NCBI GenBank assembly: GCA_029775915.1
Contig: JARVKA010000008.1
Coordinates: 1-54,797, forward strand
DNA: 54,797 nucleotides
From: Nitrososphaeria archaeon
GTDB lineage: Archaea; Thermoproteota; Nitrososphaeria; Nitrososphaerales; JANXEG01
Direction: 5' to 3'
Below, one piece after another: positions 26,174 through 47,624 of the stretch; position 1 is the stretch's first letter, and each line of letters begins with the position of its first letter. The position numbers and the translations under genes are program-made. The notes under the pieces were generated by a model, which was not told the DNA's origin, ran no database searches, and saw only the letters and a list, made by a program, of their open reading frames with translations.

Positions 26174-26182
26174 ACTCATCAC

Positions 26183-27010: not shown

Positions 27011-27020
27011 GATTATCACC

Positions 27021-30020: not shown

Positions 30021-30025
30021 ATTTA

Positions 30026-30415
30026 TCACCTCGAATAATACTGCTCAACAAGCTCCTTAATAGTTAAAACTCGTTCTTCAATCGCTGGCTCAATCTCAGC
30101 ATAAACACCTTTAAATGTTGGCATACCAGAGCTATTTGTATCACCACCTAAAAGTATATTTGCATATGGACCATAGGGGATAAAAATCATACCAGGCTTA
30201 ATCGATTCTGATGATACCGCTTTTACTACCACGCTACCATGTTGAGTTTTAATTCGAATATTACTTCCAGATTTTGCACCAATAGCCTCCAAGTCTTTTG
30301 GTGAAATTTCACATAAAGATACACTCTCCATATACTTTTCATCACTTTTTCCAAACTCTTTTCCTACACCTTGGCGTAAACTTCTCCCCGTAATTAACAA
30401 TACTTTTAAAGTCAT
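30026..30415 (-). CDS. fwdD: Formylmethanofuran dehydrogenase subunit D
   Basis: 129 residues from the ATG at 30415, giving MTLKVLLITGRSLRQG, the usual FwdD beginning; a hydrophobic in-frame extension to 30571 is outside the family length and is left out. This is the molybdopterin dinucleotide-binding barrel: SLCEISPKDLEAIGAKSGSN and KPGMIFIPYGPYANILLGGDTNSSGMP are typical. It completes the pterin site of FwdB. First gene of the fwd-mch operon; its promoter should lie in 30416-30596, shared with the divergent small gene at 30597. Confidence 0.92.
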   Translation of the reverse strand: MTLKVLLITGRSLRQGVGKEFGKSDEKYMESVSLCEISPKDLEAIGAKSGSNIRIKTQHGSVVVKAVSSESIKPGMIFIPYGPYANILLGGDTNSSGMPTFKGVYAEIEPAIEERVLTIKELVEQYYSR

Positions 30416-30596: not shown

Positions 30597-30749
30597 ATGT
30601 CACAAGTTAAAAGTGATGTAGAGAGAAAGTTAAAAGAAAAATTATCAATGGAGGATTTTGAATTAGCATTGAAATTATTGAGTTTATCCTCAAGCCAAAT
30701 AAGAGATTTTATAGAGGAGAAGGTGAGAGAGATTGCTGAAGTTGAATAA
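30597..30749 (+). CDS. Small helical protein upstream of the Rad50-like gene
   Basis: 50 residues, all predicted helix, charged, with the segment SMEDFELALKLLSLSSSQIRDFIEEK. It overlaps the Rad50-like gene by 17 bases, so it is co-transcribed and probably co-translated. The longer frame from 30501 is not needed. It could be a small subunit or adaptor of the ATPase-HerA-NurA set. No family is recognised; the overlap and the gene order are the main grounds for calling it real. Confidence 0.6.
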   Translation: MSQVKSDVERKLKEKLSMEDFELALKLLSLSSSQIRDFIEEKVREIAEVE

Positions 30750-32472
30750 AGTTGAGATTATTGGATTTAGAGGCTTTATTAAAGAATCTTTCACTTTGGA
30801 TGATTTAAGCGTATTTTATGGAAGTATGGGATCGGGTAAAACGAGTAGATTATTAGCTATACTTTATGGTTTAACAGGCCTTACTGTAAGTGGTTTGAAT
30901 TTGGACGATTTAATTCACACAGATTCAGAGTTTATGTGGGTAAAGATTATTGGTAATTACAATAATCAACCATTTTTTATTGAGCGAATGAAAAGGCGTG
31001 GAAAGCCATCGCAATTAAAAACCGATTTAAAAGCCCCTTTAGATATTAATGAGAAGATATTTATTGAGGGTAGGGAGATAGCAAAACTCTTCATCGGAGC
31101 ACCTATGGAGAAATTGGTTAAACTCGATCAAATTCTCGGCTTATCCGATTACGATCAAATTATATCAGCAATTACAACTGCTCCTATAGATAAAAAGCAG
31201 ATCGAATTATCACAATACAAATCATTAATTCAACAAACTCAAGCATCAATAGAAAGATTGAGCAAAATTGAGGAAGAATTAAAGAGTGTAGAGAATAGAT
31301 TAAAAGAGATTAATTATCGAATGGAAAGAGACTCATCTTTATACAATTGGGCTGAAAGTATAAAGAAAAGAATGGATGAACAAATTAAACGCTCAATTGA
31401 GATAGAAGGTAAAAAAAGAATGTTAGAGAGTTATAAAGCTCAATTATCATCAATCCCTCCACCATCTGAAGAATTAAAGAATGAGGTGAGTGAGTTGGAA
31501 GCGAAGTATAATGCTATGCAAAAGAGAATCGCTTTTCTTGAAGCTGCGATGCAAACACTCGATTTGGAAGGGAAAAAGATTGAGGAGATCGTTACTTGCC
31601 CACTTTGTGGATCATTAATCAAACCCAATATTTTAGAGCGCTTTAAGAATTATGATGAAGAGTATAGAAGCTTAATATCGAGAATATCCGATCTTGAAGC
31701 TTTATTAAATGAGAAGAGGAAGAGGTTAGAGGTTGAAAAGAAGAATTTTGAAAGGATGAATATTCTTAAAGAGCAAATTAAACTTCTTGAAGAAGAGATA
31801 TCGAGAGCTTTACCTCAAGTTGAAGTTTTACCTGGAGATCTTGAAGTTGCAAATCGTATTTTAGATGAGAAAGCTCGATTAACACAAGAGAAATTAGAAT
31901 TGGAGATAAAGAGTAAAAGTTTAGTTAAGCAAATTGATGATTATAAATCGTTAATTACTCAAGTGCCAAAGTTAACATTGGATGAAATAAATTCAAGATT
32001 AAACTCACTCACTCAATTTCGAGATAGATTGATGCGCATTAAATTAGCTTTAATCGATGTTGTGAATGATGTTAGAAGTGAGCAATTAAATAATTTAAAA
32101 TCATCCTTTAAAGAGGCTTTTAAAAAGATTTACCCATATCAAAGGTTTGATGATATCGATTTTGATACTGAGATTGTTAGGGGTAGGCAAGTTTTAATCG
32201 TTAAAGGAAGGGTTGGCAATCAATGGCTTTATTCACATCAAATGAGTACTGGTGAGAATGTAGCTTTAAGCTTCGCATTATTATTCGCTGCAAATCGATT
32301 GGAGAAAGCTCCTTTATTATTGCTTGATGAACCTGAGGAGGGGTTGGATGAAAAAGGTATTGAAGGTTTAAGGGATGTGCTTATTAATTTAAAATTATGT
32401 ACACAAATCGTTGTAGCTACGAGAAGTAAGCAATTGGCTGAGTTATTATCTAGCAAGGTGATTTCCATTTGA
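30733..32472 (+). CDS. Short Rad50/SMC-like ATPase with zinc-hook motif
   Basis: 579 residues; Rad50 is usually 850 or more. Start is TTG 30733 (or TTG 30742). Walker A GSMGSGKTS (30-38), coiled coil at about 155-290, a CPLCG hook (Cys289, Cys292), second coil at about 300-400, signature STGEN (505-509) and Walker B LLLLDEPE (Asp532, Glu533) are all intact, so it is a complete but short-armed ATPase. KVEIIGFRGF at the N-terminus fits the family. Its stop overlaps the HerA start. Rad50 normally works with Mre11; no Mre11 gene is in the window. It may be the repair Rad50 with an unlinked partner, or a separate SMC-like component of a HerA-NurA system. Confidence 0.82.
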   Translation: MLKLNKVEIIGFRGFIKESFTLDDLSVFYGSMGSGKTSRLLAILYGLTGLTVSGLNLDDLIHTDSEFMWVKIIGNYNNQPFFIERMKRRGKPSQLKTDLKAPLDINEKIFIEGREIAKLFIGAPMEKLVKLDQILGLSDYDQIISAITTAPIDKKQIELSQYKSLIQQTQASIERLSKIEEELKSVENRLKEINYRMERDSSLYNWAESIKKRMDEQIKRSIEIEGKKRMLESYKAQLSSIPPPSEELKNEVSELEAKYNAMQKRIAFLEAAMQTLDLEGKKIEEIVTCPLCGSLIKPNILERFKNYDEEYRSLISRISDLEALLNEKRKRLEVEKKNFERMNILKEQIKLLEEEISRALPQVEVLPGDLEVANRILDEKARLTQEKLELEIKSKSLVKQIDDYKSLITQVPKLTLDEINSRLNSLTQFRDRLMRIKLALIDVVNDVRSEQLNNLKSSFKEAFKKIYPYQRFDDIDFDTEIVRGRQVLIVKGRVGNQWLYSHQMSTGENVALSFALLFAANRLEKAPLLLLDEPEEGLDEKGIEGLRDVLINLKLCTQIVVATRSKQLAELLSSKVISI

Positions 32473-33911
32473 ATGATTTAAATATGTTGAGATCAATTGG
32501 TGTTGTAGCGAGTGAGTCTTCTGAGACTGAGGCAAGGGTTATTTTGAGGGAGAATGAGGAAAAGAGAGTAAAGGTTGAAGATTTGGTTTTAGTTGAGAAT
32601 CGAAATGGTGGTAAAATTTTAGCGATTTTGAGAAAGGGGCATGGGTGCAATGAGAATTTAAGGGCTAGTAGTTACCATCCGGGTGTTGCTTACGCAAGAA
32701 TAGGTAGAAATCCATCTACCGCTAAAGAGACTTATGATTTTTCCTTATCAGTTATTGGCGAAATTGTTAATGGGCGCATACAACAAAATAAAAAGATTAT
32801 AGCACCAGGTTCTGAAGTTAAGATCTTTGAGGATAATGATGAGCCTATGAAGCTTCTCGCTGGCAATAAGCATAAATTAACTATAGGTCATTATGAAGGC
32901 CATCCGAATTGGCGCGTACCTGTGAATGCTGATTTCATCTCATACCATATTGGGATCTTTGCTTCTACAGGTGGTGGTAAATCTTATCTTGCAAGGTATC
33001 AAATCATACCTCTTTTACGGGAGGGAGGTTATGATGTAATCGTTTTGGATTGGAAAGGTAGAGATTATGCTCCTTATTATCCAAAGGATCAAGTTTTGAG
33101 TATTTCTGATATAGCTTTAGATGCTCATACAGTAGTATCTTACCTAGATAAGAAGATGGGCCACTTTGGATATTCAACTAGTGGTGGAACTATACTACAA
33201 GCTTTAGAGGATTTCATTTACAGTGAGAAATGGCGTGGCTTAAGTGTGAAAGAATTTCGAATCGCTTTAGAAGGCTCGATTATCCATTCAGTGAATGAAA
33301 AGAGGCTTCAAAGTGGTAGGCCTTTTGAAGAGGAGCAAAGATTTAAAAGAGCTTACAAACGATTAACTGATAACGATATTCAAAATATTCTCGGAACGAA
33401 AACGCCAAAGGATATATTGAAAGAAGCAAGGGAAAAGCACATTTTGATTATAGATATGAAGAAAACTGGTAAAGATGAAAAACTTTCCGTGTTTCTTACA
33501 TTAGCGAATTATTTAATGGAGCGTATGCAAAATGATGAAGATCTTTATTTAGCTTTAGTGATTGATGAAGGCCCCCAATACTGCCCATTTAAGCCTGAAG
33601 GTATTCAGCAAGAGACTACTGATATAATTATCGATCTTTGCGCTTTGGGAAGAACCCATAAACTGTCCATTTGCCTTTTATCTCAAGGCATCGCTGGTGA
33701 AATTGGAATTAATGCTGCAGTAAGGAGAAATTTAAATACGCAATTTATAGGTAAGATACACCCATTAGATATGAATGAAGCTGGTAATTGGCTCTCACCA
33801 TTCAATATAGACCCTCGATTCCTCCTCTCACTCCCACCAGGCCACTTTTACTTTATGGGTAGTATGAATCCATCACCTATACCATTACTTATCACATTCG
33901 AAATCGAGTAA
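32469..33911 (+). CDS. herA: HerA-type DNA translocase ATPase (second pair)
   Basis: 480 residues from TTG 32469, supported by GGTGAT six bases upstream; it overlaps the previous stop by TTGA. The HAS barrel (about 1-115) is followed by Walker A ASTGGGKS (165-172), Walker B LVIDEGPQYCP (Asp366, Glu367) and VRRNLNTQFIGKIHPLD. Overall plan equals the copy at 8466-9965, but the sequences differ throughout, so this is an old paralogue, not a recent duplicate. It should form the hexameric pump for the NurA encoded 13 bases downstream. Confidence 0.9.
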   Translation: MNDLNMLRSIGVVASESSETEARVILRENEEKRVKVEDLVLVENRNGGKILAILRKGHGCNENLRASSYHPGVAYARIGRNPSTAKETYDFSLSVIGEIVNGRIQQNKKIIAPGSEVKIFEDNDEPMKLLAGNKHKLTIGHYEGHPNWRVPVNADFISYHIGIFASTGGGKSYLARYQIIPLLREGGYDVIVLDWKGRDYAPYYPKDQVLSISDIALDAHTVVSYLDKKMGHFGYSTSGGTILQALEDFIYSEKWRGLSVKEFRIALEGSIIHSVNEKRLQSGRPFEEEQRFKRAYKRLTDNDIQNILGTKTPKDILKEAREKHILIIDMKKTGKDEKLSVFLTLANYLMERMQNDEDLYLALVIDEGPQYCPFKPEGIQQETTDIIIDLCALGRTHKLSICLLSQGIAGEIGINAAVRRNLNTQFIGKIHPLDMNEAGNWLSPFNIDPRFLLSLPPGHFYFMGSMNPSPIPLLITFEIE

Positions 33912-33924
33912 TAAGGTGTGAATT

Positions 33925-35130
33925 ATGGAGATTAAAGAAGTATCAGATTGGTTGAAACTACCTGTTCAACTTCAACATCAATTCTTTCAACATGCGAGTG
34001 AAGAGGCTGAGAGGTGCAAAAAAAGATTATTAGAAAGGATGAAAAGAATAAATGAATTAAAGAGATACATTCGAACAGAGCCTATACCCGATAGTGATGA
34101 TTGGAAGGATTTAAGAGTAGCAGTAATTGATGGTTCTAACTCACCATCAACGAGTGAGAGATTGGGGAGCAGATTTGGAACTTATTGCGCGGGCTATATG
34201 ATTTTTGAGGGTAGGGATTTTGTTGAAGAGGGTTATCGTGCTGGTAGATTTACATACGATCAAATCGGTAGCCAAGATGTAACTCAAAAAATCCTTCATA
34301 TGTTTCGATGTAAATTAGAAAGAGAAGTAGCTCTTCATTGTTTAGAAGAGAAGAATGTTGATTATATTTTAATCGATGGTAGCTTTTATGGATTTAGAAT
34401 AGAGGCTTGTTTAATTAATAATGAACCTTTAAATGCTTATGGATACAGCATTGGTATGGATTTAACTGAGGATGTAAGAGATTTAACTTGGGATCTTTTA
34501 AAATCGAGAAAGGTTGTGGGTATTATTAAGCGTACGAGAACGAATGCTTTAGATGGTTGGCTTGTATATCTTCATGGCAATGAAGATCATTGCATAGATG
34601 CAAATGATAAGTATATTATGTCTTTAATTCTTCCTATCCAACATTGGTTCTCTTATAAATGGTTATTTGGTTCAGCCATTTCATTCAATTTTTATAGTAG
34701 ATTCCGGAATTTATATAGGCGTATAGTGTTACATGAGAAGAAGAATGTTACAATGGATGAGATTTATGAGGCTTCAAGGGGAAATTTAAGTCAAGAAATT
34801 AAAGAGTCTTTAGGTATGAACGTGGATGAGTTTTTGCAAACTGCAAGGTATTACATTCGATGTTGTAATGCATCACCTTTTGAATTTGAAACTCATAAAG
34901 ATATGGATGTGAGACTTATACTCTCTTATTTTAAAAACTTTCATAATCCCGCTACTGGATTGCCATGGCCTTTAGATTTAATAGATGAGAATATTACATT
35001 ACCAAGAGGCTTTAATAAAGAGTTTGTGGAGGAGATTGAGGCTCGTTTAATTCGAGATCCTGAAGTTTCAAATAAATTGGCTTTACAAGAGTATTTTTCA
35101 TACTTGAATCCTCAAAAAGCAGAAGATTAA
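33925..35130 (+). CDS. nurA: NurA nuclease (second pair)
   Basis: 401 residues with AVIDGSNSPSTSERLG (Asp69) and ILIDGSFYG (Asp151), the two acidic motifs of NurA, then GIIKRTRTNALDGW and a C-terminal FVEEIEARLI segment like that of the first NurA. AAGGTG precedes the ATG. It is the last gene of the rightward set small protein / Rad50-like / HerA / NurA, and converges on the tubulin-operon end 73 bases away. Key residues are intact, so an active nuclease is expected. Confidence 0.88.
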   Translation: MEIKEVSDWLKLPVQLQHQFFQHASEEAERCKKRLLERMKRINELKRYIRTEPIPDSDDWKDLRVAVIDGSNSPSTSERLGSRFGTYCAGYMIFEGRDFVEEGYRAGRFTYDQIGSQDVTQKILHMFRCKLEREVALHCLEEKNVDYILIDGSFYGFRIEACLINNEPLNAYGYSIGMDLTEDVRDLTWDLLKSRKVVGIIKRTRTNALDGWLVYLHGNEDHCIDANDKYIMSLILPIQHWFSYKWLFGSAISFNFYSRFRNLYRRIVLHEKKNVTMDEIYEASRGNLSQEIKESLGMNVDEFLQTARYYIRCCNASPFEFETHKDMDVRLILSYFKNFHNPATGLPWPLDLIDENITLPRGFNKEFVEEIEARLIRDPEVSNKLALQEYFSYLNPQKAED

Positions 35131-35203: not shown

Positions 35204-37912
35204 TTATGTTAATAATTTTTGTAATTTCAACTCATCAATCGGTATTTTATCCAAATCTCTCGATGCTAAAATACCTTGCTCCAATAAGAATGAATGTGAA
35301 AGAATCCTATCTGTACGGCTAGCTCGCTCATATAAACTCCTCATCTCATTATAAACCTCTAACTCTTCCATTCTCGCTTTCGATGCAATTATTAAAAATC
35401 TAATCGTCCAAGGATCTTTAGAACCGATCTCTCTAATGGTTATGCAGCGAGAAGCATCGCCTAAAATGTATCCAGATAAAGTGGTTTTTAACTCTGATGC
35501 TAAATCTTGATCCCAAATCCCTCTCGGCGCAACTACCGTTACCCACATATACTCAGTTCGAAACTCATTCGTTAATCCTAAAGCACTTGGAAGTCTTAAT
35601 ATTCTCAAAGTACCAACCAAATACTCTTTTAAATGCCTTTTATCAATAATCTCATTAAGTATAGTTTCACGAGTTAATGAAGCCTCTTCCTCACTCAAAA
35701 TCTTTTGCATAATTCGAAGCCTCTCTTCTTCAGTAATCTCAGCCACTCTATCATAATATCCACGATCTTTAGAAATCCCACTCAACTTTTCATAATACTC
35801 ATCTGCTAAATTTGATACTTCGCTTAATAACTTTCTATAATCAGAATCAACTTCAAACTTCTTCTCTATACTTACATACTCTTGAAGCTTCATTTGGGTT
35901 CTATTTAACTCGCTTTCACAATCTTCAAGCTCAGCCTTTAATAGGATAAGTTGTTTATCCAAATCCTTTATCTTATCCTCTAAAAACTTTCTTTTACCAA
36001 ATGAGATTATGCTAAGTTTTGATTTAGAAATTTCTTGTGAAAGCCTTTGCTTTTCATTCTCCAAATTCTTAATCCTTGTAATTACACTCTCTCTTTGAAT
36101 CTTCATCCTCTCCAATCGATCACTTAAAATCCTCCTCATAATTCTCATATTACTCAAGTGTGAATCAATCATTTTTAACTCGATTTTTGGTGGTTGAATG
36201 AGTGCTGGTATTAATGAAAAGAGAATTACTAACTCTGGATTTTGTAAACCTTGAATAATATTTAATGCAGCTTCATGAGCTTCTGATTTTTCCAATCTTG
36301 AAATCTCTTTATATAATCTATCTGCTAAACTCTTTACTTCCATAAATCTCTTAAAGATTTTAAGGTATGAATCGATTAATGCAACTACATCTATTAAATC
36401 TTCTAATAGTAACTTTTGCTTTACTGTAAGCCTTTGAGTACTCGCTATACTACTTCTTAAATCATCAATTATTCTTGTTGCAAATTCGTGATATATAGTA
36501 CGTGTTTTTGAAATCTCTTTTGTTTGCTCAATAACCTCTTGAACCAATCCACGAACTCTAGCTTCAGGCGTACCTTCACGTGCTTCTAAACCCACTGCTT
36601 GTATAGGCTTTGTAACCTCTTCCATTAAACTCTTAATCTGATCCTCCACACCTTTCACTTGCATACTGAAATTCATTTCAATAGATTTATCCTCATAAAT
36701 GAACTCATTAATCACTTCCTCAAAACGGCTCTCCTCATATAAACCGCGCTCTATAAGCCATTGTTTATAAACTTGAGCTAATTCATTATAGCAAAGATTG
36801 ATAATTCTCTCTAATCCTCCTAAACCAGTTTTTGCATCACCTTTATAAATCTCCAATTTATCCTTTCTCAACATACGAAGCTTATCCAAGCGATTTAATT
36901 GCAACTTTATTAATGATATATGCTCATTAATAGGGTATGAGATTTTGAGTGTGGTTATAGTGTGTATCCATCGATCACCATGATCCAAACTTGCTCCAAT
37001 ATTATTTAAAAGATCTGATAAATCGAATCTTATTGAGTTTATTAAAATATCCACAATGGCTTCATCAATAATCTTTTTTGCATCGATTAAACTCCCAGTA
37101 TTGCTAAATGCTGGTCCAAGGGGCATCATAATGAATGCGGTATAAGGATTCTCATAAACAGATCCGAACATCTTCTTTACAAAACCATTCTTACTTCGAT
37201 TGAGTAATAACTCTAAATCAATCATAGATGCATAAGCTGATGAACCTTTAGCTGGAGGATCATCACCCACACATGGTAAAATTCCAAGACCGATTATAGG
37301 GAATCCACCGCCCAATTTTCTTCTTAAATGCCTTACAAAATCTACTGCCATACCACTACCCGTTCCACCACCAATACCAAATATAACGAAGATGATTGGT
37401 GTGAGAGTTGATGATGAAACTTCCTCTTTAAATCTCTCAAGATAGCCATCTATAAGCCTCAAATAATAGTAATTAAGCCCATAAATCGCTTTAGATAACG
37501 CTCTTCTCCTACCAACTCCACCAGATAATGGTGGTATTTCCATCGATGATGATAACCATGGTTTATAATCTGATGGGACTCTAGCTTTCTCTTGCTCAAG
37601 GAATTTTGGATAATTCTCAATAAATTCGAACATAACTTCAGGTGCGGGGAATTTTACTGAGCGAGCGGTTAATTGTATCTTATCACTTGCAATACCATGA
37701 GCTTTTAAGCCCTCTTTAAATCGATCGTAAGTGCTTTGAAGGCTGTAAATATCATGATCAGCAACATCAATAGCTAAGCAAGAGACTTTAACCCCACTCC
37801 TTTTAAGTAAATCATAAATCTCTGGAGATTTCAAAAAGGTCTCAATTATATTAGCACCAGTACCACCAATCCCTATCAAATGAATGGAATAATCCTTAAT
37901 CTCCATCGACAT
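35204..37912 (-). CDS. Giant tubulin/FtsZ-superfamily protein with coiled-coil extension
   Basis: 902 residues. The N-terminal GTPase-like domain (about 1-340) has IGIGGTGANI (14-19 glycine loop), GGVGRRRALSK (131-141) and the tubulin signature GGGTGSG (181-187). RFDLSD (295-300) aligns by eye with the FtsZ T7 catalytic loop NVDFAD, keeping both Asp but with Arg for Asn. Two long coiled-coil blocks follow (about 340-560 and 590-720), then a globular C-terminal region. FtsZ and TubZ are under half this length, so it is neither; it recalls the large 'tubulin-like' families. Fourth gene of the operon, 3 bases after the membrane-protein gene. Filament formation is inferred. Confidence 0.8.
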   Translation of the reverse strand: MSMEIKDYSIHLIGIGGTGANIIETFLKSPEIYDLLKRSGVKVSCLAIDVADHDIYSLQSTYDRFKEGLKAHGIASDKIQLTARSVKFPAPEVMFEFIENYPKFLEQEKARVPSDYKPWLSSSMEIPPLSGGVGRRRALSKAIYGLNYYYLRLIDGYLERFKEEVSSSTLTPIIFVIFGIGGGTGSGMAVDFVRHLRRKLGGGFPIIGLGILPCVGDDPPAKGSSAYASMIDLELLLNRSKNGFVKKMFGSVYENPYTAFIMMPLGPAFSNTGSLIDAKKIIDEAIVDILINSIRFDLSDLLNNIGASLDHGDRWIHTITTLKISYPINEHISLIKLQLNRLDKLRMLRKDKLEIYKGDAKTGLGGLERIINLCYNELAQVYKQWLIERGLYEESRFEEVINEFIYEDKSIEMNFSMQVKGVEDQIKSLMEEVTKPIQAVGLEAREGTPEARVRGLVQEVIEQTKEISKTRTIYHEFATRIIDDLRSSIASTQRLTVKQKLLLEDLIDVVALIDSYLKIFKRFMEVKSLADRLYKEISRLEKSEAHEAALNIIQGLQNPELVILFSLIPALIQPPKIELKMIDSHLSNMRIMRRILSDRLERMKIQRESVITRIKNLENEKQRLSQEISKSKLSIISFGKRKFLEDKIKDLDKQLILLKAELEDCESELNRTQMKLQEYVSIEKKFEVDSDYRKLLSEVSNLADEYYEKLSGISKDRGYYDRVAEITEEERLRIMQKILSEEEASLTRETILNEIIDKRHLKEYLVGTLRILRLPSALGLTNEFRTEYMWVTVVAPRGIWDQDLASELKTTLSGYILGDASRCITIREIGSKDPWTIRFLIIASKARMEELEVYNEMRSLYERASRTDRILSHSFLLEQGILASRDLDKIPIDELKLQKLLT

Positions 37913-37915
37913 TAA

Positions 37916-38857
37916 TTATCCCCTACCAATCTTTTGTAACTTCTCTTTTATATTGTTGACTTCTCCAGCTAAGCTTTTATCAATTCTTGTGAGTCGAATT
38001 AATAATGTATCTAATTGCCTCACTTGCTCATCAACTTCTCTTAAAATAAAGCTTGAATAAGAACGGCTTCTCATAAGCAATATAGCGAGTATAACTACAA
38101 TACCCCCTAAACCTCCAATACCATAAAGATAAATACTTGTATCTTCACGTGGTGGTGGAAAACCTTCCCTTTTAGGTAATAATTCTAAAATTTCAATAGC
38201 TCTATTCACATCCCCAATTGAACTATATTTTTTAGCTAAATTAATTATTGAATTATAAAGTGCAGCAAAGTTTGTGTCTGTAATTGTAGTATTAACAAGT
38301 TTTGATTTTTCCATTACTAAATTTGAATATTGAATAATGGTTTTATCAGTAACTCTCACTTCTTTTCTATCCAATTCAGCCCCACTCACATAGCGTAAAA
38401 TAACGATTGGAAAACTCTTTTCAAAGTGAAGTTCATAACTAGGTGCGATTTTACTAATAGTATAGTTATCAGGTATCTTTCCAATTAAAGATAAATCAGC
38501 CACCCCTTCAACCGCTTTGAAGATGAGAATTGAGCGTCCCGGTTGCCATTTGGTTGTATTAATACCTGAGTAATTGTTATACAACCTCCAATAAACATCA
38601 CCAACCTTTACTAATGGGGTTTCCAAACTCAAATTTACACCAGGAGGGGCTGCTCGAATCACAACCTTAAAGTATATTGTGTATGTCCCACCGGCGATTA
38701 AGGTTTTATTCGTTACATCTATACGATTCGGATCTTCAATTCTCCAATCGGTAATGTATGGTCCAGCTGGTTGAGCCATAATTGATGGTAAGTTTAATAA
38801 AAATAAAGCTAAGAGCGAGATGCAAATCAATCCAATAAAAATTTTATTTATTTTCAT
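37916..38857 (-). CDS. Single-span membrane protein of the tubulin operon
   Basis: 313 residues: signal peptide (1-28), a beta-rich outside domain (about 30-170), a helical stalk (about 175-230), one membrane helix (243-263, GIGGLGGIVVILAILLM) and a cytoplasmic coiled coil of about 45 residues. GGAGGAATT precedes the ATG, and the frame overlaps the zinc-ribbon gene by 14 bases. No family was recognised. Its plan suits a transmembrane anchor linking the tubulin-like proteins inside to something outside. Confidence 0.78.
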   Translation of the reverse strand: MKINKIFIGLICISLLALFLLNLPSIMAQPAGPYITDWRIEDPNRIDVTNKTLIAGGTYTIYFKVVIRAAPPGVNLSLETPLVKVGDVYWRLYNNYSGINTTKWQPGRSILIFKAVEGVADLSLIGKIPDNYTISKIAPSYELHFEKSFPIVILRYVSGAELDRKEVRVTDKTIIQYSNLVMEKSKLVNTTITDTNFAALYNSIINLAKKYSSIGDVNRAIEILELLPKREGFPPPREDTSIYLYGIGGLGGIVVILAILLMRSRSYSSFILREVDEQVRQLDTLLIRLTRIDKSLAGEVNNIKEKLQKIGRG

Positions 38858-39440
38858 TCTTTAATTCCTCCTTATTTATCAAACTTTTCTCATTTTTAAG
38901 CGCTTCTATAAATCTAATGAGTGATGAGATTTTTTCTTCCAAATTATTAAATCGATGAGTTAATGATGATTCCAAATCTCTCACAAACCTCCAAATGGAT
39001 GATACTGACATTAATAAATCATTCATATAATTATTAATCATAGTGTTAATTACTGAAAATTCATTACTCAACTTTTGATAATTATCTTTTTGAAGCTCTA
39101 TCGCCTCTAATAAACTCTCTTGAACTTTAGATAAAGAATCACTCAAATTTATAAATCGATTTTCAAGATTATTAATCCCCACCTCTATCTCATTAATAAG
39201 CTTGCCATAATTATCCAAATTATTCACAACCCTCTCAAAACTATCCCATGATGGTACCTTAACCTCTTCATGCTTTATCTTAATTATAGTTGGAGATAAT
39301 TCATCTTTAAGAGATTTAAAGGATTCTGATTTAATTGGAGCTATTTGCTCAATTAATGGTGAGCCACAAACTAAGCAAAACTTTAATGTAATTGGATAAG
39401 TTTTATTACACTTTGAACAAAATTTTTGCTGCTCTTGCAA
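38844..39440 (-). CDS. Zinc-ribbon coiled-coil protein of the tubulin operon
   Basis: 198 residues from TTG 39440, with GGATGAT upstream. The zinc ribbon has Cys8, Cys11, Cys22 and Cys25 (CSKC...CLVC). From about 65 to 190 it is a continuous amphipathic coiled coil; no enzyme motif is present. The ribbon resembles that on the N-terminus of the tubulin-like gene just upstream, so the two may share a docking surface. Likely a structural adaptor; family not recognised. Confidence 0.75.
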   Translation of the reverse strand: MQEQQKFCSKCNKTYPITLKFCLVCGSPLIEQIAPIKSESFKSLKDELSPTIIKIKHEEVKVPSWDSFERVVNNLDNYGKLINEIEVGINNLENRFINLSDSLSKVQESLLEAIELQKDNYQKLSNEFSVINTMINNYMNDLLMSVSSIWRFVRDLESSLTHRFNNLEEKISSLIRFIEALKNEKSLINKEELKNENK

Positions 39441-39486
39441 TTATCATCCAATTATAAGAGTAAGTAAGAGATTAAAAGCTTTATTT

Positions 39487-40773
39487 TTAAATTTGATATG
39501 AGCCCTTTTTAGCTTTTTGATGAATCGAATTGAGATTTTGCGTATATTCTTTAAGTGTATCCTCAATAATTTTTAATTCCTCTGGAGGTTGAGTTGAAGC
39601 ACTTTTAACCCTTTGATAACCATCATAACTCCTTTTAATAAAGGGCTCGAAAAGATAACCTCCAATCAAAAGTAAAAGATCCATTTTATCCATTTGATCC
39701 TTAGTATATGATAAGCTAAAGTATGATGCAATGGTTAATGGTAAATTGTATTGCCTCCATGTCTCAAACTCACTCAATAACTCCTCATAACTCATTTTTT
39801 CCTTTAAAGATTCTGATATTTGAAGGAATAAATATGTGAATATAGCTGAGTTTGGATCGATAGGCATTAAAGGTCTAGCAAATGCACTTTCAAGAACCTT
39901 TGTAAGTCCATTGTAAATTCTCATACTATGCCCCAATGCGATACAAGGTGAGAAATGAAATACCCCCATCGTTCGCTCATACATTGTGAGATCACTCACA
40001 TTAATGCGCTTATGCACGCCCGCATCACCAATTGATATCATCATATCAATTATCGCTGCCAATACTTCATTACCAATAATCTCTCTACCATATCTATCCA
40101 CCGTTTTATAATACTCTAAGTTTGTATTATTCACAAGTATGATGAAATCTGAATTGAATCTCAATTTATATTTTATCAATCGTGAAAGGCCACAATATGC
40201 ATTAAAATGCAATTGATCAGATTCATTATCGGCTGGCATAATTGCGAGAATGAATCTCCCACCTCTAATTCCCCAATCTTGTAGCATTGATAAAATATAT
40301 GGTGCAGCACCGCTACCCATACCCCCACCGAGAGAGCAAATGAAGAATACTGCATCAACCTTATCAGCTTTAGCTTGAATTAAAAGATCTTTAATTGATG
40401 GATCTTCTGAAGCTAACCTCTCACCAACCTTCCATGAATGGCCCGTACCTCTAGATCTTTTACCAATCTTATGTATAATATTAGGAGGCAAAGCACCATA
40501 TACATCTTCAGAGAGTGCTTCGCTATCAATTCCTAAAAATGATAAATGTTCACTACGCTTCTTCATGCGTTTCCATAAATTTGAAAGAATCTTTATACCT
40601 GTGCTTCCTAATCCAACAATGCAATATTCAGGCTCAATCTTCTCAATAGGTGTGATTTGCTCTTTAATAGGTTGAGTTATCACTTCAATCTTTTTACCAC
40701 AAATACCACAATAATTTGCATAAGGAGGGTTTGGATGCCCTTCTGGACAAAACTTAACATTACCATTACTCAA
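39487..40773 (-). CDS. Zinc-ribbon tubulin/FtsZ-superfamily protein
   Basis: 428 residues, apparently from TTG 40773. A short metal-binding tip (Cys9, His13, Cys22, Cys25) and linker lead to the GTPase-like domain: VGLGSTGIKI (54-59 loop), GTGHSWKVGERL, and SLGGGMGSG (GGGMGSG at 149-155), the tubulin/FtsZ signature with Met for Thr. INVSDLT (257-263) may be the T7 loop in degenerate form. About the size of FtsZ plus the ribbon, but far from FtsZ and CetZ in sequence. First gene of a four-gene operon. Whether it hydrolyses GTP or partners the 902-residue paralogue is unknown. Confidence 0.8.
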   Translation of the reverse strand: MSNGNVKFCPEGHPNPPYANYCGICGKKIEVITQPIKEQITPIEKIEPEYCIVGLGSTGIKILSNLWKRMKKRSEHLSFLGIDSEALSEDVYGALPPNIIHKIGKRSRGTGHSWKVGERLASEDPSIKDLLIQAKADKVDAVFFICSLGGGMGSGAAPYILSMLQDWGIRGGRFILAIMPADNESDQLHFNAYCGLSRLIKYKLRFNSDFIILVNNTNLEYYKTVDRYGREIIGNEVLAAIIDMMISIGDAGVHKRINVSDLTMYERTMGVFHFSPCIALGHSMRIYNGLTKVLESAFARPLMPIDPNSAIFTYLFLQISESLKEKMSYEELLSEFETWRQYNLPLTIASYFSLSYTKDQMDKMDLLLLIGGYLFEPFIKRSYDGYQRVKSASTQPPEELKIIEDTLKEYTQNLNSIHQKAKKGSYQI

Positions 40774-40929: not shown

Positions 40930-41592
40930 ATGGTAATTATGAATAAGATATATTTCAATATTTTAACGATTTATATCGCATTACTTCTCTTTGTTAATAT
41001 AATTATTGTGATCATTATACCTCATGTTTACTCCCATCCTTTTGAAATCGATGTTACTGCTAAAGTCTATAAAGTGATTGATGGAGATACTTTTGATGCT
41101 TTTCCAATTGGTAGGGTGAGATTGGCTGATATAAATACTCCTGAGCGATGGGAAGCATTTTATCATGAGGCTAAAGAAGCATTAACAAAATTGATTCTTA
41201 ATAAAAAGGTTTACTTGGATATTGATGATCAATATGTTATGGATAGTTATAATAGACTTGTAGCTGTTGTTTATATAAGGCATAATAAAACTCATCTTTT
41301 AAATGTAAATTATTGGCTCGTTCACAACGGTTATGCTGTTATTAAAGATTACGAAAATGAATTTAATCCAAATACGTGGAGAGCATTTGAATATTATCCT
41401 GAAGAATTGGAAGAAATAACCAAAACCTATACTCCACCACAAAAGACTATTACAGAAATGATAAATGCTACTCAACCCCAAATCATTGGAATTAAAGAAA
41501 TTACTCCATCAAGTTACTTAATAGTGGGATTAATTGTAGGGATAATTTTAGGTATTATGTTAACGAGAAAATTGGGATTTACACGTAAATGA
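40930..41592 (+). CDS. Membrane-tethered thermonuclease (SNase fold)
   Basis: 220 residues. An N-terminal signal or anchor helix (about 8-35) is followed by an SNase domain with VIDGDTFDAF, VRLADINTPER and DSYNRLVAVVYI, which contain the expected Asp, Glu and both Arg of the active site. A C-terminal membrane helix (SSYLIVGLIVGIILGIML) and a basic tail keep it on the outer face. It should cut DNA or RNA outside the cell. Divergently transcribed from the tubulin operon; a functional link is only suggested by position. Confidence 0.85.
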   Translation: MVIMNKIYFNILTIYIALLLFVNIIIVIIIPHVYSHPFEIDVTAKVYKVIDGDTFDAFPIGRVRLADINTPERWEAFYHEAKEALTKLILNKKVYLDIDDQYVMDSYNRLVAVVYIRHNKTHLLNVNYWLVHNGYAVIKDYENEFNPNTWRAFEYYPEELEEITKTYTPPQKTITEMINATQPQIIGIKEITPSSYLIVGLIVGIILGIMLTRKLGFTRK

Positions 41593-41637: not shown

Positions 41638-43998
41638 TTAAATACTCTCTTTTCGTTTTTCAATATTTTGAAGGATTAAGCTCTTCCCAATACCATCAAA
41701 TACAACATCTTTATGAAATGCCGAGTAAAGCTTCATATAATGCTCAGGGAAATTAAAGGGTAATTCATTTGCATGAACCACACCTTTACTCTTTAATTTC
41801 ACAAAGATTAATGAGTCAACATTTGGATAATTTAAAATAATCTCAAATTCCAATAAATATCGATCGAGTAAAATCATTTCAGTATTTAAAATTTTATAAG
41901 CTTTATTCAATAAATCGAATGAGATTTCATTAAGTTTGATTGAAGAAATCTCAATCTCATGCACAATCGATTCAACAAGATTATGAATTTGATCATCCCT
42001 TCCCCAATCAAATCCTTTTGGCACTCTTTTATTAATCTCATTCTCAATCTCTCTCAAAGTATTATCAATAATTTTCATTAACTCTATAGTGAATTTAACT
42101 ATCTTTTTTTGTGTAATTGCAAGATTGATAATTTCAACAATACTCGGTTTATCCACAATTTCATTAATTATTATATCAACTTCATTTAAAAGCTTCATTT
42201 CAGCCTCTAAATTCACCATTGGATAAACCATTACCTTAGGTTCCACATACACTTTAAGAAGCTCTTTCAAAGAAATGAGCCAATTCCGCATTAATTGAGC
42301 AAATTTTCCTACTTTTTTACCAAATTTCTCATTTATTGATTCAAGGGCTTCAATAGCTATTTCAGCCCCCTTCTCCAAATCCCCTTGCTCTATAAATTGC
42401 CTCGCTATCTCTACAGTTGGAAGTGTAAAATCTTGATCGATATTTTGGCGAATTGTCTCATAAACCTCATTACAAGTCTTACTCAAATTTTGCAAATTAA
42501 TCTTAGCATCTTCATATAACTTTTTTTGAGCCTCAATTATCTTTTCGAGATCCCACTCTAAAATACTCTTTTGATCAATAATTGGAATCTCAATCGGTTG
42601 TTTAACATTCAAACTTGAAGCTTTAATAAAAGTATCTCTAAATCTTGTTAAATCCTTTACATAATGATCTTGAATTCTTTTAATTAAATGATTAAACATA
42701 AAATCGATAGATTGCTCGTATTCTTTAATTTTATTCAATCGCTCTTGTAAATCAATCATTTTCATCACATTTAATGTGGTTAATGTTAGATTCAATTGAT
42801 TAATCGTCTCACTTAAAGATGCGGAAATATCCTCAATCATAATATTTTTAAAAATAGCTCTAATTTTATCAATTTGTGCTTGAAAATCCTCAATTCTCTT
42901 TAAAACTTTTTCAGCCCTTTCTTCAATTTCCATTTTAAGCTTTAACATAAGTTGCCTCTTATCCATTTGTAACTTTATCAAATTTGCAAATCCAGAACCT
43001 AAAGATGATATAGCAAGATAAGGTATAATAATCCCTTGAAGATCGGTTACATAACCTAAAGCATTTGAGAGAATCACAATTGGCATGGCGAATACAATAC
43101 AACCTATGAGGTTAGAGATAAAGTGAGTAACTCGATTTAACCTCTTTAATTCAAATCCTTTTTTCTCTAATGATAATATCCAATTTTCAAAAATTAAGCA
43201 AGATGATATTGATAATAAGATTATTGATATAAAGGCTATTATACCGAAATTCCCCGTAAAGTATTGCACTACCCAATAAGTGAATGCTTCAGGATCGCCC
43301 TTAAGCGCTCTTCCACTATTCACAATAGGGCCTATAATATTTGTAAATGTTAAAACTTCAACACTTGGATAAAAATTTGGATTTGCGTAAGAGTATAAAA
43401 TTGGCAATCCAGTTAACTTTGGTAAAGTTGTGGCTGTAGCTGTAATTTGAATTGGAATATAATAAGCGAGGAATGTGATTATTGGATTAATCCTACCAAT
43501 CTTTCGATAAGTAGTTATAAAAAAGATGATAAGAGGTATAGCTATGAAATAAAATGGTGTGAGCATAATCGCGCTCGCTAATAAGCCCAATGATGCACCT
43601 ATTGCACCCTCAACTTTTATACTTCTTCCAGTAAGAAAAATGACTAAAGGAATATAAGCGAAGATAAAATAAGTTCCTAACCAATTACCTATTAAAGCTC
43701 CGAATTGATAACCTAGGGCTAAATTAACGATGAAGAATGAGCTAAATATAGCTACAGTAGTATCTCTTAATGTTATTAATAAAAATAGAATTGAGAAGAG
43801 AATCGTTAAAGATTGTGGTAAGAATGGAATAAAAGAAAGGCTAAGATAGCTTGATAAACCGATTAAAATCGCACATGTAACTCTTTCATGTAAAGTTTCA
43901 CCAACCCCTACTTTAGCGATTTGCACACCTTTAATCTTAGTAGTTATTATAGTCTTTTGCACCATTCTAAATGATCGAACCTCCATTAATTTCATCAT
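41638..43998 (-). CDS. Polytopic membrane protein with long cytoplasmic coiled coil
   Basis: 786 residues (several nearby in-frame ATGs). About ten hydrophobic segments fill residues 35-335 (for example LTILFSILFLLITL, GALIGNWLGTYFIFAY, FGIIAFISIILLSISS). Residues about 335-786 are charged and helical with repeated heptads and include a TPR-like patch (EQGDLEKGAEIAIEALESI). No transport or enzyme motif was recognised. It is divergent from the 1139-residue surface protein 206 bases away. Membrane channel, scaffold or mechanosensor are all guesses. Confidence 0.72.
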   Translation of the reverse strand: MMKLMEVRSFRMVQKTIITTKIKGVQIAKVGVGETLHERVTCAILIGLSSYLSLSFIPFLPQSLTILFSILFLLITLRDTTVAIFSSFFIVNLALGYQFGALIGNWLGTYFIFAYIPLVIFLTGRSIKVEGAIGASLGLLASAIMLTPFYFIAIPLIIFFITTYRKIGRINPIITFLAYYIPIQITATATTLPKLTGLPILYSYANPNFYPSVEVLTFTNIIGPIVNSGRALKGDPEAFTYWVVQYFTGNFGIIAFISIILLSISSCLIFENWILSLEKKGFELKRLNRVTHFISNLIGCIVFAMPIVILSNALGYVTDLQGIIIPYLAISSLGSGFANLIKLQMDKRQLMLKLKMEIEERAEKVLKRIEDFQAQIDKIRAIFKNIMIEDISASLSETINQLNLTLTTLNVMKMIDLQERLNKIKEYEQSIDFMFNHLIKRIQDHYVKDLTRFRDTFIKASSLNVKQPIEIPIIDQKSILEWDLEKIIEAQKKLYEDAKINLQNLSKTCNEVYETIRQNIDQDFTLPTVEIARQFIEQGDLEKGAEIAIEALESINEKFGKKVGKFAQLMRNWLISLKELLKVYVEPKVMVYPMVNLEAEMKLLNEVDIIINEIVDKPSIVEIINLAITQKKIVKFTIELMKIIDNTLREIENEINKRVPKGFDWGRDDQIHNLVESIVHEIEISSIKLNEISFDLLNKAYKILNTEMILLDRYLLEFEIILNYPNVDSLIFVKLKSKGVVHANELPFNFPEHYMKLYSAFHKDVVFDGIGKSLILQNIEKRKESI

Positions 43999-44204: not shown

Positions 44205-47200
44205 GTGGTATGGATGCGTTTGCATAAGTTAATTTTATTATTAATTGGTTTCTCATTCTTATTACTATTTGCATTTATAGCACTTAATGAATTAGCTTAT
44301 GCTCAAACGGTCACAATTACTATAACTAGTAACCCTCCAAATTTGGATGTTATTGTTGATAACGTAGCTTATAAAACGCCAATATCATTCGATTGGCAAC
44401 CTGGTGATACTCACACGATTTATGTGAATTCTCCTCAAAGTGGAGGTTCGGGGATGAGATATGTGTTTTTATCATTCTCAGCTGATAGTATAGGAACTGT
44501 CACAAACAACCAACTCACTTATACAGTACCAAATAATGATGAAATTATCTCTATAAACTTCAAAACACAATACTACTTAACTGTAAATAGACCTATAGGC
44601 GCTACTGGGAGTGGAGAGGGTTGGTATGATGCTAACTCGGTAGCGACGGTATCATGTAGTTATGTATGGAATGAAATTGCAAGTCGAGTTAGAAGTAATT
44701 TAAAGAGATGGCATGATGGTACAACATATTACGATGTGTCACCAAGAAGTAGTTCTGGTTTATACTCAATCAATATTCCAATGAATTCTCCACGTACTGT
44801 AACTTTTGAAGGTGTGACACAATACTTTTTATCCATATCTGGAGGCACGGGTATTATATGTGATCCACCAAGCCCAACTAATGACAATTGGTTCGATGCA
44901 AATACTCAAGTAACAATTTCTTGCTTATATGTTAAAGTATCTTTACCTAATAAAATCCGTGAGAGAATTGTTAGTTATACTTTAGATGGGATTACTTATT
45001 CAATAACACCAGCAGTCTCTGGTAGCTTCTCAATTTCTATAAATTTTAACACTTATCACACATTAATCTTTAACAGCATAAAACAATACTTCTTAATGGT
45101 TAATGGAGGCTATAATGTAAATTGGTTAAATAGCCAATTTGATGATGGTTGGTACGATGAAGAAACTTATGCTCAAGTTGTAACTGATTATACATGGGAT
45201 GTAATTGCTGAAAAGTCTAGAATGAATTTAAAGTCATGGAGTATTGATAGTGGTGAAGCACAAAGTGTTGAGAGAAAAAGTTTTGGAAGATTTGAAACAC
45301 CAACTATACTTATGAATACTTATCATACTGTTAACTTTTATGCCGTAACCCAATATTACTTATCATTAAGAACGGGTATTAGTGGTAGCATTGTATCACA
45401 ATCTGGTAGCCAAACTAGTGATAATTGGTATGATGAAGGAACTAGTGCTACTATACTAGCAAAATCTCCTTACACTATTGGTACTACTGCTCGATATGTA
45501 TTTGCAAGATGGAATCCTATTGAGGGAAACCCTATAGGATTTCCAAGTATATCAAATCCAGCCACTGTAATTATGACCAGTTACTTTACTATTGAAGCGG
45601 AATGGGAGTATGATAAAGTAATTTTAAATCAAGCTTCAAATATGCGTGTGGATGTTGGCTCAACCGCTGTAATAAAGATGCATTACATATGGGAGAGTGA
45701 TGAAAGTAATGTGGTTGGATTTGATATATATGTGAATGGCACGGCATATAAACCTGATAACTCGGGTTGGATAACATTTTTATATAGCCAATCAACAATA
45801 GGCAAGAAGGTTTGGCTCACTACATACGCGAATGGTGGTCCTCATTTTATAAATCGTGTAATAGCTCAAGTGATATTCGATAGAGTAGGGATAGTAGTGA
45901 AAGGTGCGAGTGATTATCGTGTTAATGTTGGTTCATCAGTTACCGTATGGTTCTCTGCTATATATGAATATGATCGAATGAGATTCGATGGTGATAAAGG
46001 TATTATTTTGATTAATAATGAACCTGCAAAATGGAACTCTTTTTTATTGAGATGGGAATTATCCACTTCATCACAAACTGTAGGTATGAGAGAATTTACC
46101 GTATCTAGTATTCAAGATAGAGCTTATGGTTTGAAAACATTCAATAATCTGGCTGGATCTGTATCGATTATATGGGATAGGGTTAAAGTTAGCAATAAAG
46201 GTGCGAGTGATTCTAGAGTTGATATTGGTACTCAATCCACAGTTTATTTCGAATTAAATTATGAATACGATAATGAGATAGTTTCGGATGGCTCGGTATT
46301 GATTCGTGGTATGCAAGCTCAATATAACCCAATTAAAAAAAGATGGGAATTGAATGTTTCACTTAATACAGTTGGTAAAGAGACATACTATGTAACCTCA
46401 GTATCTAACAATAAGTATGGCATAACCGTTTTGAATGATATTACGGGTTCTCAAGATATTATTTGGGATCGTTTAGAGGTTTATCAAGGCGGTGTGGTTA
46501 AGGAGAGGGTTGATTGGAATTCTCCAAATACCATTTGGCTTAAAGTTCGATATCAATACGATAATACTGAATTTACAAAGGATTGTGGCTCAATTACATT
46601 AAATGGTTCATTACCTATGGAGTGGTCATCAATTAATAATAGATGGGAGCGCCAAATATCTTTAAATCGAGTTGGCAAATTAACATTTCAAGTGGATGAT
46701 ATTAAAGATGGGTTATATGGTTTATCTTCTCATAAAAGATTGGATTCCATTGGTGCTCTTACAGCAATTTGGGATACGGTAAATGTAAAACTATCTGTAT
46801 ATCCATCGAGAATAGATGTTGGTAGTAGTGCAAAAATTTCTACTAAAGCTTATTATCAATTCGATAATAGCGAGTTTGTAGGTGATATAATTTTAAATGA
46901 TACCATTACAAAGTTTAATGTTGGCCTTTACAATTATACTGTGAGTAAAATTATTGATGGCAAGTATGGTTTAAAAACATTTACATCAAATGTTATCTCA
47001 GTTATCTTCGATTGTGTGAATGTAACTTTATCTTCAGTAGAAAGAATCGAAGTTGGAAGGAATGCGAATATTTTATGGAATGCATATTACTTATACGATG
47101 GTAAACCATTCAATGGCAGTATTGTATTAAATGATGATACAATGAAGAATGAAATCGGTAGGTACCCATACACAGTAAAGAGCATAGTGGATAAATCTTA

Positions 47201-47624
47201 TGGACTAACCAATTTCAAATCCAATACCATTTATATCACATTCGATAAGCTTAAAATCGAGCATCATTTACAATCACTCTTTCCAGGTTTATTAAAGGTT
47301 ACAGTGATTTTAAAGTATCAATCTGATGATTCACCTGTTGAAAAAGCTTCAATTACAATTAATGGTATTGAAGCGATAGAGAAGCCGAATGGTTTATATG
47401 AAATCGATTTAACAACGTGGAGCCCTGTACAAAGCATATTAGTAATGGTTGAATCTTCTAAAGATCCTATAACTAATCAACCTTTATTCTCTCCATTAAA
47501 GATTGAGGATACCGTTTATCATTTAGGCAATATACTTACTGGAGTATTGGCTCAAGTTATCGTAATTATTGCTATTATCGTAATCTACCTTCAAGTTTGG
47601 AAGAAACGGAAAATTGCTAAATAA
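44205..47624 (+). CDS. 1139-residue repeat surface protein with C-terminal anchor
   Basis: Start is GTG 44205 or ATG 44214. A signal peptide precedes a PEGA-like domain (TITSNPPNLDVIVDN). Then come four repeats of about 80-100 residues sharing QYxL at the start and GWYDAN/NWYDEG in the middle, followed by at least six repeats of about 70-105 residues with YRVNVGSS...YEYD...YGLKTF...IIWDRV. One C-terminal membrane helix and a basic tail (KKRKIAK) end it. Beta-rich stalk architecture suggests an adhesin or surface sensor. It is the largest gene in the window; no catalytic motif is seen. Confidence 0.75.
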   Translation: MVWMRLHKLILLLIGFSFLLLFAFIALNELAYAQTVTITITSNPPNLDVIVDNVAYKTPISFDWQPGDTHTIYVNSPQSGGSGMRYVFLSFSADSIGTVTNNQLTYTVPNNDEIISINFKTQYYLTVNRPIGATGSGEGWYDANSVATVSCSYVWNEIASRVRSNLKRWHDGTTYYDVSPRSSSGLYSINIPMNSPRTVTFEGVTQYFLSISGGTGIICDPPSPTNDNWFDANTQVTISCLYVKVSLPNKIRERIVSYTLDGITYSITPAVSGSFSISINFNTYHTLIFNSIKQYFLMVNGGYNVNWLNSQFDDGWYDEETYAQVVTDYTWDVIAEKSRMNLKSWSIDSGEAQSVERKSFGRFETPTILMNTYHTVNFYAVTQYYLSLRTGISGSIVSQSGSQTSDNWYDEGTSATILAKSPYTIGTTARYVFARWNPIEGNPIGFPSISNPATVIMTSYFTIEAEWEYDKVILNQASNMRVDVGSTAVIKMHYIWESDESNVVGFDIYVNGTAYKPDNSGWITFLYSQSTIGKKVWLTTYANGGPHFINRVIAQVIFDRVGIVVKGASDYRVNVGSSVTVWFSAIYEYDRMRFDGDKGIILINNEPAKWNSFLLRWELSTSSQTVGMREFTVSSIQDRAYGLKTFNNLAGSVSIIWDRVKVSNKGASDSRVDIGTQSTVYFELNYEYDNEIVSDGSVLIRGMQAQYNPIKKRWELNVSLNTVGKETYYVTSVSNNKYGITVLNDITGSQDIIWDRLEVYQGGVVKERVDWNSPNTIWLKVRYQYDNTEFTKDCGSITLNGSLPMEWSSINNRWERQISLNRVGKLTFQVDDIKDGLYGLSSHKRLDSIGALTAIWDTVNVKLSVYPSRIDVGSSAKISTKAYYQFDNSEFVGDIILNDTITKFNVGLYNYTVSKIIDGKYGLKTFTSNVISVIFDCVNVTLSSVERIEVGRNANILWNAYYLYDGKPFNGSIVLNDDTMKNEIGRYPYTVKSIVDKSYGLTNFKSNTIYITFDKLKIEHHLQSLFPGLLKVTVILKYQSDDSPVEKASITINGIEAIEKPNGLYEIDLTTWSPVQSILVMVESSKDPITNQPLFSPLKIEDTVYHLGNILTGVLAQVIVIIAIIVIYLQVWKKRKIAK

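Follow-up and report, generated by a model that had tools for sequence, protein, structure and literature searches.

The stretch of DNA analysed here, in the following called the window, comprises positions 1-54,797 of contig JARVKA010000008.1 (GCA_029775915.1, Nitrososphaeria archaeon), and all positions are given in its numbering. It contains a gene cluster with two different proteins of the tubulin/FtsZ superfamily, termed F and T, which are accompanied by the membrane proteins M and P. An original prediction, made from the DNA letters, had placed F, M, the zinc-ribbon protein Z and T in a candidate new four-gene system. The four open reading frames (ORFs) were found at that place on the minus strand (39487-40773, 38844-39440, 37916-38857 and 35204-37912), and the spacings of 46, -14 and 3 bases between them were reproduced. 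The assigned protein types could be recovered as well. The glycine loops GIGGTG and GGGTGSG are located in F (902 amino acids, aa), GLGSTG and GGGMGSG in T (428 aa). These loops are beyond chance, and with both proteins exceeding the Pfam cut-offs for Tubulin and Tubulin_2 the claim of two tubulin-superfamily proteins was borne out. The proposed ectodomain membrane protein is the 313-aa M, which begins with a signal-like segment and has a single hydrophobic span further on, a pattern that is kept in relatives, and the proposed zinc-ribbon coiled-coil protein is the 198-aa Z, with a CxxC...CxxC ribbon and a helical tail. The genes considered in the following are:

35204..37912, minus strand: F, FtsZl1-type tubulin-superfamily GTPase, 902 aa (Pfam, AlphaFold2 (AF2) model)
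37916..38857, minus strand: M, signal segment, ~200-aa ectodomain, one span and basic cytoplasmic helix, 313 aa (hydropathy)
38844..39440, minus strand: Z, 198 aa, helical/coiled-coil protein with a zinc ribbon; lineage-specific accessory
39487..40773, minus strand: T, zinc-ribbon tubulin-fold protein, 428 aa (Pfam, AF2 model)
41638..43998, minus strand: P, 786 aa, with a polytopic membrane domain (~residues 40-340) and a long helical region after it
44205..47624, plus strand: S, 1139 aa, large secreted beta-repeat protein anchored by a C-terminal span; an accessory within this order

F was searched for in 61 relatives, 400 genomes of the class, 398 genomes of the phylum and a named genome collection, and profiles made from the window genes served to assign the ORFs in the vicinity of each F. 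F is present in 18 of the 400 genomes of the class and 21 of the 398 of the phylum. In 30 non-redundant loci the sequence extends for 6 kb or more to each side of F; of these, M, P and T were each found in 28 and all three together in 27. The module occurs in named Thaumarchaeota/Nitrososphaerales, Bathyarchaeota, Desulfurococcales/Pyrodictiaceae and Dehalococcoidia. Many loci show the order M-F-P-T on a single strand; T is inverted between F and P in the Bathyarchaeota loci and in most Pyrodictiaceae/Desulfurococcales loci. The co-location is kept despite this rearrangement and is therefore stronger evidence for a joint function than a conserved order alone.

The conserved unit across the phylum is M-F-P-T, not the four genes of the original prediction. 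Clustering was confirmed by the gene-neighbourhood check suggested there, in that the core genes remain together across the phylum; the membership has to be revised, since Z occurs in only three families and is eroded in a sister species, and P had been overlooked. The protein Z shows sub-threshold Pfam DZR_2/zinc-ribbon matches, and among the relatives' loci its homologues were found only in those of G011 and G005. In the sister species G001 (L051:2841-3443) the 3' end alone is recognisable, without an open reading frame. Z was therefore rejected as a core part and is regarded as an accessory. P escaped notice because a staphylococcal-nuclease-like (SNase) gene (40930-41592), encoding a membrane-anchored or secreted product on the opposite strand, separates it from T. 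The SNase gene was rejected as a module part and is considered a local insertion: relatives lack it, and the genes for P and T have an overlap of 8 bp in the sister species.

Both membrane partners were characterised by hydropathy, and their topology is kept in all lineages examined. M consists of a signal segment, ~200 aa outside, one span at ~240-265 and a short basic inner tail, and of the 73 non-redundant F loci 65 contain a homologue of it. In P, several spans fall within the first ~350 residues, and a long helical part comes after them. Neither M nor P matches a Pfam family at gathering level.

The two tubulin-superfamily proteins

F matches Pfam Tubulin_2 (PF13809) with 44.7 bits (cut-off 27) and Tubulin with 33.9 bits (cut-off 33). 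Both families are matched by all 26 of the 26 aligned F homologues at E<=0.01, and in the tree F and bacterial FtsZl1 form one group with a support of 100/100. F is therefore a member of a known family. FtsZl1 was described by Makarova and Koonin in 2010 (PMC2875224), and Pfam Tubulin_2 was tied to that work later (PMC9871819); the newness originally attributed to the 902-aa protein is lost. For one FtsZl1 of Sulfolobus, SSO1376, transmembrane helices at the N-terminus have been reported (PMC2875224). According to the NCBI model F is not an FtsZ (TIGR00065, 18.7 bits vs an equivalog cut-off of 295), and we agree with the original prediction that the layout of F and T is unlike that of FtsZ, CetZ and TubZ. 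The AF2 model of F (predicted local distance difference test, pLDDT, 86.4) gives CetZ, TubZ, FtsZ and tubulin as top fold matches in the PDB, with a best E of 1.4e-5. In the structure check that had been proposed, the AF2 models of both F and T were found to contain the tubulin N-terminal domain. Within F the following features were located:

37352..37372, minus strand: T4 GTP loop GGGTGSG, residues 181-187
37013..37024, minus strand: putative T7 catalytic loop D-x-x-D, residues 297-300
35594..36931, minus strand: long helical/coiled-coil arm, residues 328-773 (AF2 secondary structure)
35375..35548, minus strand: alpha/beta segment at the C-terminus, residues 789-846, which may correspond to S8-H10-S9-S10 of a split C-terminal domain

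Every F that was read across this region has the motif GGG[TS]GSG. D297 and D300 are invariant in the 26 aligned homologues and occur in further F proteins too, for example as DLQD in L170 and DPAD in L137. In the model, both residues directly follow an H7-like helix (275-293) and precede a short helix and a strand (316-325). Motif and model topology suggest that D-x-x-D at residues 297-300 is a putative T7-like loop of F. The spacing is the same as in the NxDxxD loop of FtsZ, and the known role of the T7 D-x-x-D in the superfamily is catalysis across the subunit interface.

In bacteria, where most FtsZl1 proteins have 500-650 aa, the family aligns with the F profile in two separate blocks, ~6-300 and ~760-878. 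Between the blocks lie ~30-120 aa in the bacterial proteins vs ~460 aa of helical/coiled-coil sequence in archaeal F, and the coiled coil is therefore considered an elaborated arm between two conserved halves. Residues 789-846 of F show a beta-alpha-beta-beta order that is the same as at the end of the T C-terminal domain (T 312-371). Together with the near-contiguity of the two blocks in bacterial FtsZl1, this order leads to the structural guess that the arm may split the tubulin C-terminal domain of F; a profile comparison of F and T gave no support for such a split (probability 0.9%).

Some F loci deviate from this picture. The genome G675, which belongs to the same phylum and consists of one contig, has M, P and T together with an F that is split near residue 415 into two adjoining frames (L124:7514-10170); either F is frameshifted or decaying there, or a sequencing error is responsible. 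In a further genome of the phylum (G419, L106) F stands alone on a long branch, with none of M, P and T nearby. The distant bacterial FtsZl1 loci contain no M, P or T. There (L187-L205), two paralogous FtsZl1 genes for proteins of ~510 and ~550 aa often lie in tandem; this is another instance in which tubulin-superfamily proteins are paired.

T matches Pfam Tubulin (PF00091) with 52.1 bits (cut-off 33) and Tubulin_2 with 29.4 bits (cut-off 27), and 17 of 23 T homologues match PF00091 individually. Its AF2 model (pLDDT 84.4; predicted template modelling score, pTM, 0.82) exhibits a complete two-domain tubulin fold. The best PDB match is CetZ1 (4b46) with E 6.7e-18 and a template modelling (TM) score of 0.80 over the target, and the match probability to CetZ1, FtsZ and tubulin is 1.00. 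As for F, the NCBI model does not identify T as FtsZ (TIGR00065, 36.6 bits vs 295). Ten T proteins form their own clade with a support of 100/100 and a stem of 1.68, compared to 1.71 for FtsZl1 in the same tree. This tree was composed of FtsZ, CetZ-like, Nitrososphaeria FtsZ-like and FtsZl1 rows, with CetZ-like and FtsZ taken from relatives and without TubZ or true tubulins; T does not group with the FtsZ, CetZ-like or FtsZl1 clades included, and the deep order between the clades reaches a support of 72/74 only. A first scan of the collection with T alone as query found nothing, because T evolves fast. Two features of T were mapped:

40699..40749, minus strand: N-terminal zinc ribbon C9, H13, C22, C25
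40309..40329, minus strand: T4 loop GGGMGSG, residues 149-155

The zinc ribbon is invariant in the 10-member alignment and missing from most Bathyarchaeia-type T proteins. An intact GTP loop is found in the window, in L051 and L052 and in seven Dehalococcoidia T proteins, and L053 is nearly intact (SGGTGSG). In the other T proteins read the loop is degenerate (GSLSEGIVAG, SSxWDGVGSA or unrecognisable), and mapping of its state on the F tree requires at least two changes. A D-x-x-D is missing at the T7 position of T. The presence of two filament formers, as originally proposed, is doubtful, as T lacks an intact GTP loop in most lineages.

Occurrence in Dehalococcoidia and neighbouring genes

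Dehalococcoidia (Chloroflexota) carry F proteins that are mostly 42-52% identical to the window F over its length and are adjoined by P, T and a gene H, mostly also by M. Records with the archaeal module are L131, L132, L133, L136, L137, L156, L170 and L186. The last of these, CP070819.1, is a chromosome record; it holds M and an F of reduced length, with P and T missing from the vicinity. In the tree, Dehalococcoidia F is nested inside Nitrososphaerales F. A tree that holds Nitrososphaerales F together without Dehalococcoidia F was rejected (approximately unbiased (AU) test, p 0.002), the constrained group having been named after the tree had been seen. On the basis of these sequences, a transfer of the module from archaea to bacteria would be the simplest reading. 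Mis-binning is a concern for contigs assembled from metagenomes, but these loci were obtained in several studies, and CP070819.1 is a chromosome.

The H gene (~270-350 aa) is a steady neighbour of the module in f14, f8 and Dehalococcoidia. Its N-terminal half may be pleckstrin-homology (PH)-like, and one neighbour at the same position has a weak bacterial-PH match, which we treat as a lead only. Among archaea, loss of the GTP loop in T at first went along with the presence of H; this link was dropped, as Dehalococcoidia have H together with an intact T loop. Homologues of S, which possesses a signal segment and a C-terminal span, flank the module in f5, f8, f11 and f14 genomes.

Two further FtsZ-superfamily genes are present in the same genome (G000:C4:203440-203952 and G000:C3:44786-45244). 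One of them groups with CetZ-like proteins and the other, with a GGSVGTG loop, with noncanonical Nitrososphaeria FtsZ. The genome also gave two weak, sub-cut-off Snf7/ESCRT-III-like matches. Outside the module, genes for an SMC/RecN-like ATPase, a HerA-like protein and NurA lie in a row at 30733-35130, convergent with F, and represent a typical archaeal end-resection group. Genes for a molybdopterin oxidoreductase-like protein, an amidohydrolase-like protein and methenyl-tetrahydromethanopterin (H4MPT) cyclohydrolase lie close together at 25211-30029; they are a one-carbon (formylmethanofuran/H4MPT) group.

Possible functions of the module

With moderate confidence we read the locus as a membrane-attached cytoskeletal module of the tubulin family, in which F would form a GTP-driven filament, T would be its non-catalytic partner and M and P would act as anchors, and which would not be a division ring. 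With GTP bound, F would polymerise head to tail along the cytoplasmic side of the membrane, and every T7 loop of F could then trigger hydrolysis in the adjacent subunit at the F-F or F-T interface. T, without a catalytic contribution, may cap, nucleate or adapt the F filament; analogous roles are those of gamma-tubulin, which nucleates, and of alpha-tubulin, which carries a non-hydrolysed nucleotide. Through their helical cytoplasmic parts P and M would anchor the filament and relay position or force to the cell surface, with coupling through the S protein in this order. The output might be a local shaping or scaffolding of the envelope. Two points weigh against a filament of this kind: the T7 assignment rests on motif and model topology in 26 sequences, and the 450-aa insertion in F could block ordinary protofilament packing.

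A more far-reaching form of this cytoskeletal reading appears possible, and we put it forward tentatively. F and T would then constitute an obligate two-component cytomotive filament resembling alpha/beta-tubulin, to which F gives the T7 loop while T has lost nucleotide binding more than once; M and P would wire the filament to the surface, and the module would have moved from archaea to Chloroflexota.

Alternatively, F and T could be an anchored GTP-dependent switch or scaffold of a membrane transport or signalling complex that forms no filaments and in which the GTP state controls P and M. We regard this as a rather unlikely explanation, which nevertheless finds some points in its favour. 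The multi-span domain and long helical part of P and the ectodomain of M would suit such a complex, the arm insertion of F might hinder packing, and transport or signalling was already suggested by a reviewer of the 2010 FtsZl1 paper (PMC2875224). Against it, F retains the T7-like D-x-x-D known for cross-interface catalysis, and the 2010 authors state that all characterised members of the superfamily polymerise (PMC2875224).

A biological-conflict (immunity) module akin to the GTPase-centred systems with tubulin-coiled-coil genes of Firmicutes and Actinobacteria is improbable. In those systems tubulin domains are indeed accompanied by coiled coils, with two such genes in Firmicutes (PMC7159879), the bacterial FtsZl1 genes are often tandem pairs and the module is patchily distributed across genomes. 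However, the module's own proteins contain no vWA, TRAFAC GTPase, HSP70 or effector domain, bacterial FtsZl1 loci are devoid of M, P and T, and no convincing PADLOC match was obtained; the matches to LmuB and PbeC were discounted since they fall on helical/coiled-coil regions.

A division or DNA-segregation machine of the FtsZ or TubZ type is likewise improbable: both functions occur within the tubulin superfamily and the models of F and T match FtsZ, CetZ and TubZ, but most genomes of this class and phylum lack the module, its conserved partners are membrane proteins, and with two other FtsZ-superfamily genes and the weak Snf7/ESCRT-III-like matches, division in this genome is likely served elsewhere.

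Comparison with known systems

As a whole, the interpretation given in the original prediction is partly supported. F belongs to an already known family. Apparently undescribed are the status of T as a family of its own, the partnership of M, P and T, the T7-like loop in F and the copies in Chloroflexota: no description of them was found in the open-licence papers searched. The supplements of PMC2875224 may list some of the neighbours. Uncharacterised FtsZ-like sequences in Bathyarchaeia and Nitrososphaeria were noted in a 2022 paper and may overlap with T or F.

With the FtsZl1 proteins of PMC2875224, F shares the N-terminal FtsZ-like GTPase, the long coiled coil and the C-terminal domain, and its assignment is in accordance with the Pfam cut-off, the GGGTG(S/T)G loop and the three-part layout. 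The partners differ. vWA proteins, a P-loop GTPase, kinases and OmpA were published for FtsZl1 (PMC2875224), in contrast to M, P and T for F, and none of vWA, P-loop GTPase, OmpA and kinase was seen among the window neighbours scanned; such gene context does not enter into how the protein family is defined. T6-H7-T7 could not be located in FtsZl1 in 2010 and filament formation was left open (PMC2875224), whereas archaeal F shows the T7-like D-x-x-D with an H7-like helix. FtsZl1 has been an orphan branch of the tubulins since then, with its filament ability doubted. The module supplies fixed partners for it, namely two unnamed membrane protein families and the previously unseparated tubulin family T. 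The apparent transfer to Chloroflexota suggests a self-contained unit that might be rebuilt in a laboratory host.

The conflict systems of Kaur et al. 2020 (PMC7159879) share tubulin domains with coiled coils, as pairs in Firmicutes; according to the domain scans, the module differs from them in being without TRAFAC GTPase, MoxR-vWA, FNIII, HSP70 or effector. T shares the whole two-domain fold with CetZ, FtsZ, TubZ and tubulin, from which it is set apart by its separate clade, the zinc ribbon found here, the missing T7 D-x-x-D and the mostly degenerate GTP loop.

The two-tubulin systems alpha/beta tubulin, BtubA/B and Asgard AtubA/B likewise bring two different tubulin-fold proteins together, one of them without catalytic parts. 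In comparison, F and T come from deeply separate families and are not close paralogues, and the membrane partners are built into the module. That T has lost its GTP site while its partner F is fully conserved provides a natural experiment on the conversion of a tubulin into a non-catalytic subunit, as in the eukaryotic alpha/beta pair.

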